Source of the DNA: Glomus cerebriforme
Lineage: Eukaryota > Glomeromycota > Glomeromycetes > Glomerales > Glomeraceae
Assembly: GCA_003550305.1 (NCBI GenBank)
Contig: QKYT01000156.1
Location: forward strand, 114,299-142,624
Length of the DNA stretch: 28,326 nt
Direction: 5' to 3'
The translations under genes were made by a program, and so were the position numbers. The first letter of the stretch is position 1, and each line of letters starts with the position of its first letter. The notes beneath the pieces are model-generated. The model did not search any database. It was not told the DNA's origin and saw nothing but the letters and a program-made list of their open reading frames with translations. Of the stretch, positions 8,833 through 14,779 are shown one piece after another.

Positions 8833-10627
8833 GGTATTCCAATCTATTGCGTATTTATATTTCTTCAAGAGTTGGTTAGAAAATATTAGGGTTGGCTTAT
8901 GATATTTTATTACAACAAAATCTTTATGGATAGTATAACCTGAGGCTAAAGTAATAGGCAAATTGTAAACAACTCTAACAAATTTAATTGGAACTATAGT
9001 AATACCACTAAAATCGTATATTTCAGATTTATTAATTTTAACATAATCTCTATATATTCAATAATATTTTCTATTATAAGTGGTAGCTTAGTCTTAGAGT
9101 CAATTGTCATAGCAGAAATCTTTAAGCACTTGATTTTACATTTCACAGTTGTAACATTTATCTTCAACTCCTTCTTCTTAATGAAATCTATTTTCATAGG
9201 ATCATTCAAATATTTTTCCTCCTCTGACAATATATCCTTAGCAATTGAAAAAGTTTTCTAGGTTGGAAACGCTTGATTTGGTATATTAGCTTTACTAGAG
9301 TCTTGGGAAAAATGTTTAGGAAAAAATAATTTAAATTCACTTTGAAGAATTTTATAAATACTTTTCTCTGAAAGAGTTTCTCTCAGTTTGGCGCTAAGTA
9401 TCTTTTTAGAGATTTCTACTTCACTTTTTTTTTGCCTTAGCAATATTAACAGTGATATCACTTTCAGAATTGCAAGAATCAAAAGAATTTGTATCAGAAT
9501 CAGAACTATTGCTAGAAGAAGTATCAGAAAAGGTATCTGAATCTGAATCTGAATCTACAGTAGTAAGATTAATCTTACTCTTTTTGAACTTCTTGCTTTT
9601 TTTTTTCAAGGGCAGTTTCAAGAATTGTGTTCAGATCTACCATAGTTGAAGCATTTGTGACCTAAAGACGATTTCTTAACAGCATGTTTAATAACAGTAT
9701 TTATAATACTATTTAGCATCAACCCTACCATACTATCTGTAATATTATCTATAGGATTATAATTATAATCATCTTTAGGTTACTTATTTGAATTTTTTCT
9801 TAGTAGGTCACTCAGAAAATGCCTAATAATAAAATCTTTCATCTCTTATTAACTGATTTTTTACTATTATCTAGAGTCTTAATTGCTCAAGATATAATTT
9901 CTTGCAAGGATTTAATAGTAGATTGTAAATTAGTATTTTATTGAGCTGTTTGAGACTGTAAAGACACCTTATAGTTTTTATCAAATTCTCAATTTCAGTT
10001 TTAGATAATTCCAATTTATTAGTATTTATATAGGAGTTGGCCGTCAGAAAAATAGGAATAGAAATTAGTGCACTCTTTTAAGATAATGTATATTTTTCTG
10101 CTTCAGCTAATGCTTCTGTAATATTATCTTATGTATTATAAAACTTAGTTATCATTCAAAAATTATATTAGTTCATTAATGATATTATTCGAATAAACTA
10201 TTCTTTTTGCTATTCAGAGGTCATTTCTGCTAGATTACCAATCTTCTTAATTTAGGCAGAAAACCCTTTAACACCCATATTCCTTTGCATAAGTTGACCA
10301 AAAACTACCATTTGTTTTAAGTGTTCAATGGTTGTATAGGAAGTTCTAAGTAAGAAAATAAGTTAATCAAGTTTGATATCAGAAGCAATTGTAATAGCAA
10401 AAAACCCTCCAGTAATATTTGGTGCTACTGATGCATTATTTATAGGTTCACTACTAGCTATAGTTTATAGACCAATTTTCATCGCATGTTCTATCTGAAA
10501 TAATATCAGCACCAATTGTGATTTCTGTTCTAATTCTACTAATTTTAGTATCTACCTTATTTTAGAATTCTTCTGTAGTGTTCAAACCACCAATTTGATT
10601 ACCACTATTTCCAGCTCCTATTGCTTA
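8833..10627 (-). pseudogene. gag-protease polyprotein relic, segment C (capsid region, zinc knuckle, aspartic protease)
   Basis: Minus-strand retroelement polyprotein. From its upstream end: GAGNSGNQIGGLNTTEEF, VDTKISRIRTEITIGADI, then a decayed capsid-like helical region to about 9750. A CCHC zinc knuckle follows near 9660-9616 (CFNY-GRSEH-NS-stop-NC, second Cys changed to Tyr). After an A-run frameshift come a lysine-rich segment and an Asp/Ser-rich acidic linker (9590-9440), then the protease region. Its catalytic Asp is at 9101-9099 in MTIDSKTKLPLI; relatives have DSGA, so the Gly is lost. A further conserved stretch includes SGITIVPI, NLPITLASGYTI and LLKKYKYAIDW up to the hAT insertion at 8833. 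Many premature stops show it is dead. The retroviral-type layout (gag, knuckle, protease) is clear; the superfamily (Ty3-like probable) is not settled without a reverse transcriptase. Confidence 0.75.
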
Positions 10628-10763
10628 TCGCAGTTTTCAAAATTCTGTACACTGCAGATCATCATGTGTTGTGAAATGATTATGATTACCAGTTCGTGAT
10701 TACTGGTGTAACTAACAAATAATACCAATCATTTCAATTTTATATAAAGCTAATTTATTCAAG

Positions 10764-12416
10764 ATGCGTTTTTGTTACGTCTCATTTTTTGTACCAAGTC
10801 TCTTTAATATGGTTGAATATAATATTGGAACATGCTATGGATGCCGCAAGTGTATATACTGCAGCTGTTATCTAACTGTAAAACAGTGTAACTGTGATAA
10901 AACAGTAAAGCCTACAAAAGCTAATCGTACTGAAAATGTTCCATATGTATTTACAAGAATCTTTAAAGAAAAACTTAATCTTTGTAAAAAAGTTTTTATT
11001 CAAACAAAAAATTCACTTTATTCTTATAATAGTAATTTGAAAAACAAATTTATTTTTTCTTTTTATTCTACATGTAATAGCCAATTTCAACGACTTTATA
11101 ATAAAAAAACTGTTACTTCTGAAAACACCAATGATTCTAATTTTTGTAATAAAAATTCAATTAGTTCTCTCATTATCGATCCTATTTTTCTTAATACAGA
11201 AGAATTTATCAGTCCCTAGCCAAATGATAATTATGTGAAAAATGATGAAGAAATACAAGAACAACAAGTTTCATTTATTTTAATTATCAAAAAAGCAAAT
11301 GGAAAGTTATTACCTGGGAAATGGCTTATCCTTGATGCATTATCTTTTAAAAAATTTGCTATTCAAGTTCAGAAATATATTAGAATCATATTGGAAGTTA
11401 ATGATATTGATCAAGAAGCATATTCTCTCGCTTTCAAATCAGCCAAATCAAATGGTGGAGATTTGGAGTTAAGTGATTTAAATGATTTTGGAAAATTTCT
11501 TAACAAATATAAAAAATTACACAGATTACAAAAAGAAATTGTTGTAATCGTGCAAATGAAACAAAAATTTGATAAGAAAAAAAAGCGAAAGCAAGTGNAN
11601 NTAAAATAATTACTTTTTTTATTTATATAACTATACATTTTTACTAAATACTAAATACTTTATTTTAGGAAGAAGTACTTGAATCTGATGAATTTTTGTC
11701 AGATGAGGATAATTCAAAAAAGAAAAAAATGAATGCAGTTCCTAAAATATCAGGCCTAACTTCTCATCAAAAAGCAATTGGTAAACTAGTATCTGAACTC
11801 CGTAAATAGTGATATTGTTCTCAAGATAATCTGCCATGCTATGTTGCTCAAGGAATTCATTTGAAACTATCAGCAAAGCTTCTTGCGACATGGGCAGAAT
11901 GCATTGTAAGTAAATATTTCTTACTTATTAATATTATTCAAAAACAATATTAATAGATAAACAAATTAGATGAACGGAACTGCAACTATTGAAATAGCAC
12001 CAACCCTTCCAGATTTCGCTGTACAGCATGCTTCTAAAAAGAATATGCATAATGTGACTAATGCTTATCCACTTGCACTTATGCCATCACAGATATTTAC
12101 AACTTATCCCATTCAGTATACGCCACATCAATATTATTCATCTTGTGTTATTTCTGAACCTTTAACATCTGCTTCTAATTTTAATACCTTACCATTATCA
12201 GAATATCCAATTCCAAGTGTAAAAGAATTTTTGAAAAAGTTGGATAAAGATGAGGGTGATAATGGCGACTTTACACAGTTTATTAATGCATTTATTGAAC
12301 AAAAAATAATTGTCAAACATATTAAAGATCTGGATGATAATGATTTTCAAGTATTAGGTNTAAAGACTATTNGCTGGNGTAAAACTATTCAAGCTGCANC
12401 AAAACAATATAAATAA
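10764..12416 (+). pseudogene. Transposon accessory gene: Cys-rich N-terminus, SAM-like C-terminus, three in-frame stops
   Basis: Three exons, 10764-11594, 11669-11905 and 11970-12416, are joined by GT-AG introns and total 505 codons. Exon 1 encodes a cluster of eight cysteines (residues 24-44, CYGCRKCIYCSC and CNC), a possible zinc-binding module. A Ser/Asn/Lys-rich linker and a conserved-looking block LPGKWLILDALSFKKFAIQV follow. Exon 2 has an acidic/lysine stretch (SDEFLSDEDNSKKKK), then LTSHQKAIGKLVSELRK, CYVAQGIHLKLS and LLATWAECI. Exon 3 ends in a helical domain (about residues 438-504: PSVKEFLKKLD...FINAFIEQKI...IKDLDDNDFQVLG) with the spacing of a SAM domain. In-frame stops lie at 11217 (TAG) and at about 11807-11812 (TAG TGA); otherwise the frame holds, so death is recent. 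Alternative start: the Met at residue 16. Seven N bases lie in the gene span. I cannot name a function; DNA or protein binding in transposition is a guess. Confidence 0.6.
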
Positions 12417-12544
12417 AACATNATAATTGTATTGAAAATAATATAATAGTTTAATAAAGCATAATAAATTTTGATTGATAATAATTTTTATAAATGTATA
12501 AAAAATGTTTANTTTTGATCTATATTATCTATATAATTTATTAT

Positions 12545-13718
12545 TTAAAGATATACAGTTCCTTTAAAAAACCCCTTCGCCATTGCAGTTGTAATATGAA
12601 AACTAGCTATAAGAAGAGCATAAATAGGATCATTACAGCTTTTTATAAAATCCTGATTTCTTTTTAGAAAACTTTTTATTACTAAAAAAGCAGTTTCAAT
12701 CAGGTTTAAGTCTGGAGAATAAGGAGGGAGGAATTCTACATGTATGCCAAATGCTTGAAGATATTCAATTAACCCTTCATCATGATGAATTCTTGCATTA
12801 TCAAGAACAATGATACTATTAGGACCTGGATATAGATTCATCTTGGGTAGCTAAAGATACAAGATATAAGAATTAGAAATTAGTATGATAAGATTATTGT
12901 ACTTAATCCATAAATAAAAAATTTTACCATATCAGAAATAACAAAGTTCTTAAACTGCTCCTTAGTACAACTTTCTTTTATAATATCAATTGTTATGAAT
13001 CCTTGTAATGACAATGCAGGCAAAATTGTATATTTTTTGTCACATACAAATACTACCTTTTTTCTTGTACGAATACTCATAAAAGAATATTCATATCTAC
13101 GTGACAAACTTCGTTCATCTTTGGCAGATTCATCTAAGAAAACTAGTTGATTAGGAGTATAATTAACTCTTATATTAGCAATAAATACACTGTGAAGTAT
13201 TTCATTTCATTTCTTAGCACTTTTATGAAGCTAATTGTAAAATAAAATTAATTAAAAAGAATAATAATATATAAATTCAACTGTTACTTCTTTACTTTTA
13301 CCTTTTTTCGCGTAATACCACAAAAACAAAGAGAATGCCACAATGTTAGAACAGACACTCTTTTTTCAGTTAGGATCTCCATCTCAGATACAAATTCATC
13401 TAAATACCAATCTACATTATCCACAAGTTGTCATAATGCCTAATATTGATAATATTGATTTATTGATAAATGAGACAACTTACATAAAAAATAAGTTATA
13501 ACACTTGCATTCATATCGTCTCCATTAAAAATTTTACATCGCCCAGCTTTCTTTAACCATAGATTAACCATATACCCCTATTTTCTATAGATTCTTAAAA
13601 CCTTCTTTACAGTATACTTGCTCATATAGAGTGTTTGTGCAATTTGCTTTGCAGAAAAGCCATCATAATGTAAATATACTATTCTCCACTTCAAATCATT
13701 ACTAAAAGCCACCAGCAT
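12545..13718 (-). pseudogene. Tc1/mariner-IS630 DD34E transposase, spliced, four in-frame stops
   Basis: Cut-and-paste transposase. Exons 13718-13302, 13230-12928 and 12850-12545 are joined by GT-AG introns in phase 0 and give 342 codons including stop, the normal size of the family. Exon 1 has a helix-turn-helix (LKWRIVYLHYDGFSAKQIAQ, then TLYMSKYTVKKVLRIYRK) followed by a second DNA-binding region. Exon 2 has the first catalytic Asp in LVFLDESAKDERS. Exon 3 has the second in IIVLDNARIHHDEG and the Glu in PPYSPDLNLIETAF, with exactly 34 residues between them: the DD34E signature, all three acidic residues kept. Stops TAG, TAG and TGA lie in exon 1 and TGA in exon 2. No frameshift is needed. 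This copy is inactive, but the catalytic core is unusually well preserved, so active relatives probably exist in the genome. Confidence 0.85.
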
Positions 13719-13980
13719 TAAGAAATTAGTAGAGAATAGAGAAAATCAGTGGAAATCAAAAACTTTGGATCAGAAATCTCAACAACCACTCAAAAATAAC
13801 AAGCTATATTTGGATATATTATATATAAAAGTCATAAAAGATGCAAAAATCTTAAGAAAATCATGAGTAATCATAGTATAGCAGTTTTTTTTCTAAGCGC
13901 ATTTCACTTTTATGAGGAAAATCTGATAATTTTTTTTATCAGGTGATCTGTAGAAGGTAGCACAATTTTGAAAACTGCGA

Positions 13981-14367
13981 TAAACAACAGTTAAATTAGC
14001 TATATCTAAGTTGTCTAAAAGATTATTACATTTTCAATTCTTATCTTTGATATGAGTTTCATATTATTGCTTAGCAAGTTCTTCAAGACAAGATATTAAT
14101 AAACCTAAAGCCTCTGCTTTTTCAGGAGTCTGTTCTGCTTCAGAAGTTACATTTATTCAATTAGCTATTACATATTTCTGAAAATCTCTAAGGAAATCTT
14201 CTGAATCTTTTTCAAGACATTTATAAAATATTGGGTGTTCATATCCTACCATTCCTATTTATTATATATTAGTGAGTTATTCTGAAGCGCTAAAATTTAT
14301 CCCTGCAAATTTAAAATATTTTGGTAAGAATTTTTTTCTTTAGCCTTTCATTTTTCATATCGCTCAT
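13981..14367 (-). pseudogene. gag-protease polyprotein relic, segment B (gag domain between mariner and MITE)
   Basis: Minus-strand frame from an ATG at 14252: MVGYEHPIFYKCLEKDSEDF, then LRDFQKYVIAN, AEALGLLISCLEELAKQ, YETHIKDKNWKCNNLLDNL and NLTVV at the mariner junction. Two stops (TGA, TAA) fall where Trp, Gly or Gln codons would be one transition away. Similar GYEHPIFYxCL gag segments recur in Rhizophagus retroelements by recollection. Upstream of 14252 the frame shifts by one base, but the coiled-coil part of the protein continues across the MITE. Confidence 0.7.
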
Positions 14368-14779
14368 TAGTGTTCCACACGAATCGAATCGAATCAAATT
14401 GAATCAGATTCGAATTTGATTCGATCGAATCACGAATCGTTCAAATTCGATTCGATATTCGAACGAATCAAATTAAATCAATTCGGATTCGATTCGAATT
14501 CAGTTCGAATTCGATGCCGATGTCACGTGATTCATAATTCCAGCTGGAATTAAATGATCTGCAAGAAAATTGCCTTTTTGGGAATCTTGTATAACCCAAA
14601 ATTCCAATTTTCGAGAGAAACAAAATTGCCTTTTTGGTTTGTGTAATGTTATATAAGATCCAAATAAGGCAATTTTGGCCAGCTTTATAAAATTTGGGCA
14701 AAATTAAACAATCGGTCGAATCGAATCCGAATCGAATCCNAATTAAATTCGATTCGGCCGAATCGACTGCGGAACACTA
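14368..14779. mobile_element. hAT-type MITE (412 bp) filled with GATTCG repeats
   Basis: Ends TAGTGTTCC (14368-14376) and GGAACACTA (14771-14779) are exact inverted repeats, flanked by 8 bp copies TCGCTCAT (14360-14367) and TCGTTCAT (14780-14787), 7/8 matching. Inside both ends are dense GAATCGAATC / GATTCGATTCG arrays in opposite orientations, so the whole element can fold. The CpG density stands out strongly against the AT-rich surroundings. No coding capacity; the 77-codon frame across it is incidental. One N at 14740. Excision rejoins the gag coiled-coil frame across NRLYER and YEK. Confidence 0.85.

Follow-up and report, generated by a model that had tools for sequence, protein, structure and literature searches.

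Elements of the Tc1/mariner superfamily have been used as tools and as models because one protein, the transposase, has been thought to suffice. What, then, does it mean when such an element carries a second, spliced gene between its ends? This question is raised by a 28,326-nucleotide stretch of DNA, hereafter the window, from Glomus cerebriforme (GCA_003550305.1, contig QKYT01000156.1, positions 114,299 to 142,624, forward strand), in which an element at positions 10628-13980 holds a transposase gene and, facing it, an accessory gene for a protein with a Cys-rich N-terminus and a C-terminal SAM domain. We conclude with high confidence that a selected two-gene element exists and that the window contains a dead copy from an old two-gene Tc1/mariner lineage of a Rhizophagus-like fungus. 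We are no less confident that both genes were inherited together, under purifying selection, while the lineage spread and that single copies decayed afterwards. For the specific role of the second protein, we place a transposition cofactor at an even chance, and the whole account, lineage and cofactor mechanism together, stands or falls just as easily.

The element and its two genes

The element is confirmed as real. It spans 3353 bp, and its inverted ends (10628..10644 on the plus strand and 13964..13980 on the minus strand) are identical at 17 of 17 bases, with a target-site TA adjoining each (10626..10627 and 13981..13982). Its flanks were joined into a query of 600 letters with the junction at 300, which was searched in the same genome (112.5 Mb in 1117 contigs, the one genome covered by the copy and co-occurrence counts below). 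The query ran unbroken across the junction in paralogues on C247 and C483 (query 1-600; 77 and 76% identity) and on C673 (3-588), and the junction also lay within partial matches on C606, C221, C470, C546, and C900. At the window locus the match was broken in two by the element. Because the paralogues read through the empty site, the borders and the insertion are fixed without any gene call, and the ends proposed in an earlier note on this DNA, made from the sequence, prove exact. That note had also argued that a host gene closes in frame when the element is removed. That argument is weak, as the interrupted gene belongs to a decayed repeat and contains many stops, including one in the codon at the junction; the empty paralogues give better evidence. 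With its duplicated TA target site and its terminal inverted repeats, the element fits the Tc1/mariner superfamily.

The transposase gene lies on the minus strand between 13718 and 12545 in four exons, with three stops and no frameshift. Exon 1 (13509..13718) encodes the N-terminal helix-turn-helix region, for which families were matched on relatives. Exon 2 (13302..13439) and exon 3 (12928..13230), the latter with the first catalytic D, were placed by alignment. Exon 4 (12545..12850) was placed by alignment and by its match to PF13358 (E 9.4e-16); it contains the DDE_3 domain with the second D and the E, and ends in the stop codon. By our own count, 34 residues separate the last D from the E, the DD34E spacing that had been read from the sequence, and a DDE_3/Tc1-type transposase with this spacing belongs to the IS630-Tc1-mariner superfamily. 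A usual, though not strictly defining, feature of that superfamily is a single transposase gene; here a second gene is conserved. Related transposases number 257 proteins, 120 of which were listed with their organisms: Rhizophagus irregularis, R. clarus, Acaulospora, Entrophospora, Ambispora, Gigaspora, and Cetraspora, with more distant relatives in other fungi. Both DDE_3 and helix-turn-helix families were matched on these relatives.

The accessory gene, on the plus strand, converges with the transposase gene across 128 bp. Intron-aware alignment to homologues gave three exons with three in-frame stops and no frameshift, which leaves the gene about as decayed as the transposase, as had been claimed. 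The convergent three-exon layout inside the ends also stands, whereas the length first given, about 504 codons, falls to about 491, because the start chosen here lies 15 codons after the frame's first ATG. Exon 1 (10809..11600, by alignment) encodes the Cys-rich N-terminal and PB1/ubiquitin-like domains and has an in-frame TAG at 11217; its donor falls on a masked N, and the position was taken from copies L002 and L003. Exon 2 (11669..11905) encodes a C..C..H stretch and a WA..I helix, and has two adjacent in-frame stops at 11807-11812. Exon 3 (11970..12416) encodes a linker and the SAM domain, known from homologues, and ends in the stop codon. Introns 1 (11601..11668) and 2 (11906..11969) rest on alignment and on their recurrence in other copies.

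Eight Cys residues recur across the accessory family (C9, C12, C15, C18, C27, C29, C86, and C89 of homologue P0001), so the eight-Cys cluster proposed for this gene holds for the family; the window copy itself has Tyr at position 86. The SAM-like C-terminus was likewise borne out on P0001, which scores above the curated profile cut-off and has the SAM fold. The PB1/ubiquitin-like domain is putative, a fold match on a predicted model. Those homologues of the accessory protein that carry an organism name come only from Rhizophagus.

Copies and shared history of the two genes

The accessory gene in this element is not a one-off capture. The window element is itself the locus on C254, and C355 holds a full-length copy with both genes and TA ends, at 92.5% identity over 3329 aligned positions. 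A first search of the genome gave 93 accessory and 162 transposase matches, and after clustering, 37 of 58 accessory loci had a transposase locus no more than 6 kb away, with 37 of 37 pairs convergent. The query set was then widened. The accessory set comprised 93 and 107 matches from two queries, plus 34 of 100, 46 of 102, and 18 of 115 from three later ones, from which the rows taken were meant to be loci not yet covered; the transposase set comprised the matches listed for the window transposase and 14 from a further query. This gave at least 91 accessory and at least 81 transposase loci. Pairing within 3 kb with a related transposase was found for 51 of these accessory loci, every one of them convergent and with a median gap of 148 bp, against about 0.4 pairs expected by chance by our own arithmetic. 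The accessory gene also tracks this group of transposases: among the 148 PF13358 loci listed, it lies within 3 kb at 31 of the 52 that coincide with window-transposase matches and at 3 of the 96 others, and one of those three, on C249 (L029), is a family member as judged by its alignment.

The gene structures recur as well. In 30 aligned rows from 29 loci, several of them incomplete, the first accessory intron falls at residues 246-257 of P0001 (28 rows) and the second at residue 327 (26 rows). For the transposase, recurrent introns fall close to residues 70, 117, and 217-219 of P0009; some loci (C380, C3, and C666) lack the middle intron. Most copies are dead. On C696, the one intact pair, both genes lack stops and frameshifts, and the accessory gene has its start and stop codons. 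The C696 alignment also shows a further "intron" of 69 bases whose donor is GC, which was taken as an alignment effect. The accessory frame on C280 and the transposase on C3 are also free of stops and frameshifts, the latter though with masked bases.

Readable end-to-end copies have TA-flanked ends of the type TCRCNRTTTTCAAAWT around both genes. Such inverted ends enclose both genes in 15 of 25 loci, with sizes of 2.9-3.7 kb (C254, the window locus, and C355, C360, C380, C457, C589, C942, C666, C715, C308, C280, C302, C696, C379, and C3). C589 (L047) and C942 (L054) have identical flanks and are one insertion counted twice among the 15, the shared insertion being a haplotype or segmental duplication. 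On C457, C589, C666, and C942 the family end pair ranked second or third by score, and the left end on C379 deviates from the family motif. A strict motif test, which leaves out 3 of the 25 loci (in L003, L007, and L054), found both ends in 10 of 22. The family end pattern TATYRCNRTTTTCAAAWT has 190 matches across the genome, and its reversed control has 2. Two findings had been named beforehand as speaking for a single capture: other copies with these ends and the transposase alone, and an accessory gene present in single copy elsewhere and lacking transposon ends. To the extent that the two could be checked, the outcome went against a single capture, and other copies with family ends hold both genes.

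These counts bear on whether the family might be an artefact, either unrelated repeats adjacent by chance or gene models forced by alignment. The window is AT-rich, its surroundings are repeat-rich, and each gene was modelled by alignment to a single query, all of which would invite such a reading. Yet shuffled sequences (12 trials for each gene) reached alignment scores of at most 64 for the accessory gene and 57 for the transposase, whereas scores for the 25 loci in the trees are at least 293 and 261, and the chance expectation for pairs and the control motif count speak against an artefact in the same way. Contradicted by the empty sites and the end motifs, this explanation is extremely improbable.

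Two side observations concern the ends. A subterminal ATCATGTGA-like motif, chosen after inspection, lies 20-110 bp inside 15 of 28 ends and in 2 of 28 internal controls. Among the matches listed, end motifs also face each other 89-1218 bp apart at C2:96394-96551, C26:15850-17067, C311:115625-115713, C331:37849-38465, and C364:86388-87003; these closely facing pairs are likely non-autonomous derivatives of the two-gene family.

Evidence for a common history comes from comparing the two genes locus by locus. Over 25 loci, a set that includes C942 and the second C589 locus as the same insertion, the protein distances of the two genes correlate with a Mantel r of 0.80, which none of 5000 permutations reached (best 0.26). 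This upholds the claim of the earlier note that both genes probably moved together. The two gene trees have the same main clades and differ within some clades and at the base. In trees with chosen outside proteins (36 transposases and 20 accessory proteins), R. irregularis or R. clarus transposases fall inside most subclades, named Rhizophagus accessory proteins fall in two subclades (those of window/C421 and of C3/C380), and two more subclades contain unnamed outside accessory proteins. Other species sit within subclades, and therefore at least these families predate the species. Transposases of Acaulospora, Entrophospora, Ambispora, Gigaspora, and Cetraspora are also placed among those of this genome (branch support not shown).

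Substitution ratios tell a consistent story. Across 14 pairs between older lineages, the pairwise ratio of nonsynonymous to synonymous substitution rates (dN/dS) was 0.30-0.74 in the accessory gene, with 0.17-0.60 in the transposase gene; across 10 young pairs the values were 0.62-1.79 and 0.98-2.18, with one transposase pair identical. The pair C433/C360, of middle age, gave 0.76 and 0.80; it fits neither group and is not counted in either set of ranges. These 25 pairs are not independent. For three older pairs, the related ratio pN/pS was about 0.23-0.62 in the four domains compared with 0.5-1.4 in linkers. The comparison, one that the earlier note had recommended, shows a signature of purifying selection on both genes between lineages and of about neutral decay in young copies, and so supports function of both genes in past lineages. 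Such a split between old and young pairs is what would arise had both genes been important for spreading, with individual copies dying later.

This shared history also disfavours an alternative that had been left standing at the outset, that the accessory gene is a captured host gene carried as passive cargo. Host SAM proteins are common, and at C205:199203-201487 and C1085:234609-235792 the accessory sequence stays open over long stretches while no transposase is listed nearby, though with stops in some matches; these may be solo or domesticated accessory genes. Recurrent capture, however, does not give matching distances and clades, and passive cargo is contradicted by the matched trees, the one intron plan, the single orientation of all 51 pairs, and the constraint between lineages. 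We regard it as very improbable.

The surroundings of the element hold further repeats. The host repeat, on the minus strand at window positions 9000-10626 and 13983-14300, is decayed, has matches on 11 other contigs, and includes a CCHC zinc-knuckle-like stretch that is gag-like by eye. At 14370-14777, a 408 bp, GAATCGAATC-rich segment with inverted ends GTGTTCC/GGAACAC and TA on each side looks like a separate insertion resembling a miniature inverted-repeat transposable element (MITE).

Candidate roles of the second protein

How might the accessory protein serve its element? The likeliest answer is a self-assembling cofactor, either of transposition or of escape from silencing. As a transposition cofactor, it would act at the DNA of its own element or with its own transposase. 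PB1-like and SAM modules of other proteins often oligomerise head to tail, and here they could let the second protein multimerise, while the Cys-rich N-terminal domain, which is probably zinc-binding, would supply a DNA or protein contact. The resulting assembly might build or stabilise the transposition complex at the element ends, with cutting and joining left to the transposase. With helix-turn-helix and catalytic domains of its own, the transposase need not involve the second protein in either reaction.

A number of results weigh against this account, in its mechanism and in its two-gene part. Pfam gave no PB1 match for any of P0001-P0008, even with E values as high as 1 allowed, and Foldseek gave no match for the PB1-like domain at E 0.001 or better. 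For the N-terminal Cys-rich domain, Pfam gave no zinc-finger family and comparison with folds in the Protein Data Bank (PDB) no significant match. The whole accessory model has a pTM of 0.34, with the domain arrangement undefined, and Pfam and PDB fold comparison recognised no DNA-binding family in the protein. The transposase seems complete, so that a cofactor is not obviously needed, and evolution is faster in the accessory gene than in the transposase, which also fits a role in silencing escape or regulation. No accessory homologue named for Acaulospora, Entrophospora, Ambispora, Gigaspora, or Cetraspora was found; a partner of those transposases would be either lost, too diverged, or unannotated. 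Finally, 40 of the 91 accessory loci and 29 of the 81 transposase loci are unpaired. Among the minority of these that were read, C57, C503, C373, and C388 abut long runs of N, and only a fragment is present on C918; the C620 locus begins at the edge of its contig, and closer alignment found transposase remnants at C120, C249, and C251.

Silencing escape is the main rival to the cofactor. Here the accessory protein would be an anti-silencing or chromatin factor that binds element DNA and keeps transcription on, with no role in strand transfer. VANC proteins of plant VANDAL elements set a precedent, and polymerising SAM domains occur among chromatin proteins. The faster evolution of the accessory gene, with linkers nearly neutral, fits an arms race, and a transposase that seems self-sufficient in its domains also favours this role. 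The searches that recognised no DNA-binding family in the protein recognised no chromatin reader either, and we rate this role as possible but on the unlikely side. A regulator or inhibitor of the transposase, assembled by PB1/SAM polymerisation and limiting copy number and host damage, would accord with the modest number of accessory loci in 112 Mb, and the convergent 3' ends could allow antisense control. Selection on a self-limiting function of a selfish element should, however, be weak, whereas the accessory gene is present in every subclade read and is constrained between lineages; we consider an inhibitor improbable. Returning to the cofactor, we would word the broader proposal as a hitherto undescribed Glomeromycotina branch of Tc1/mariner that is obligately two-gene when autonomous, its second protein needed for transposition or silencing escape, a statement that we hold as evenly balanced between right and wrong. 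The same balance applies to the picture, within that proposal, of a second protein that self-assembles, combines Cys-rich, PB1-like, and SAM parts, and has a novel zinc fold at its N-terminus.

Comparison with known systems

The window family indicates that fungal mariner elements need not be single-gene machines. A long-lived lineage that keeps an unrelated second gene under selection implies that one protein may fall short in some hosts, for a reason that can be tested. For arbuscular mycorrhizal fungi, the two-gene family adds a defined family of repeats, and its homologues suggest that some Rhizophagus "SAM domain-containing proteins" may be mobile-element genes. As far as the available text of two studies goes, the curated repeats of R. 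irregularis include Tc1-Mariner families with no mention of a second gene (PMC11075540, PMC8647823), and about two thirds of the transposable elements of this species were unclassified before one recent curation (available part of PMC11075540).

The window family shares its transposase family (PF13358), TA target, and short terminal inverted repeats with the fungal Tc1/IS630-like DD34E elements. Those elements normally have one gene, and the other PF13358 loci listed in this genome, unlike the window group, rarely have an accessory gene nearby. A second element-encoded protein that acts on element DNA beside a DDE transposase is familiar from TnpA of CACTA, the Myb-like protein of Harbinger, and VANC of VANDAL; these are other superfamilies, likened to the window family here by general description. 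Tankyrase, SHANK, BICC1, and ANKS3 share the C-terminal SAM domain by profile and fold, and only the SAM part aligns; they are host scaffold proteins and not mobile. No fungal counterpart of a two-gene Tc1/mariner element was found in the literature searched. A close likeness is with the TBE elements of Oxytricha, Tc1/mariner elements that, in the accessible part of their description, encode a 42-kD transposase and 22-kD and 57-kD open reading frames (ORFs), all three under purifying selection, with stops or frameshifts in many copies (PMC4724952). To that extent, both families combine a Tc1/mariner transposase with extra ORFs of unknown function, purifying selection, and many broken copies. 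TBE, however, is a ciliate germline element with three ORFs, whereas the window family is fungal and its second gene is spliced. The 57-kD ORF is described as a zinc finger with a kinase, in contrast to the Cys-rich/PB1-like/SAM protein here, a distinction drawn from description and not from sequence. Set beside these systems, the window family is a fungal variant of the multi-gene Tc1/mariner element with a different second protein.
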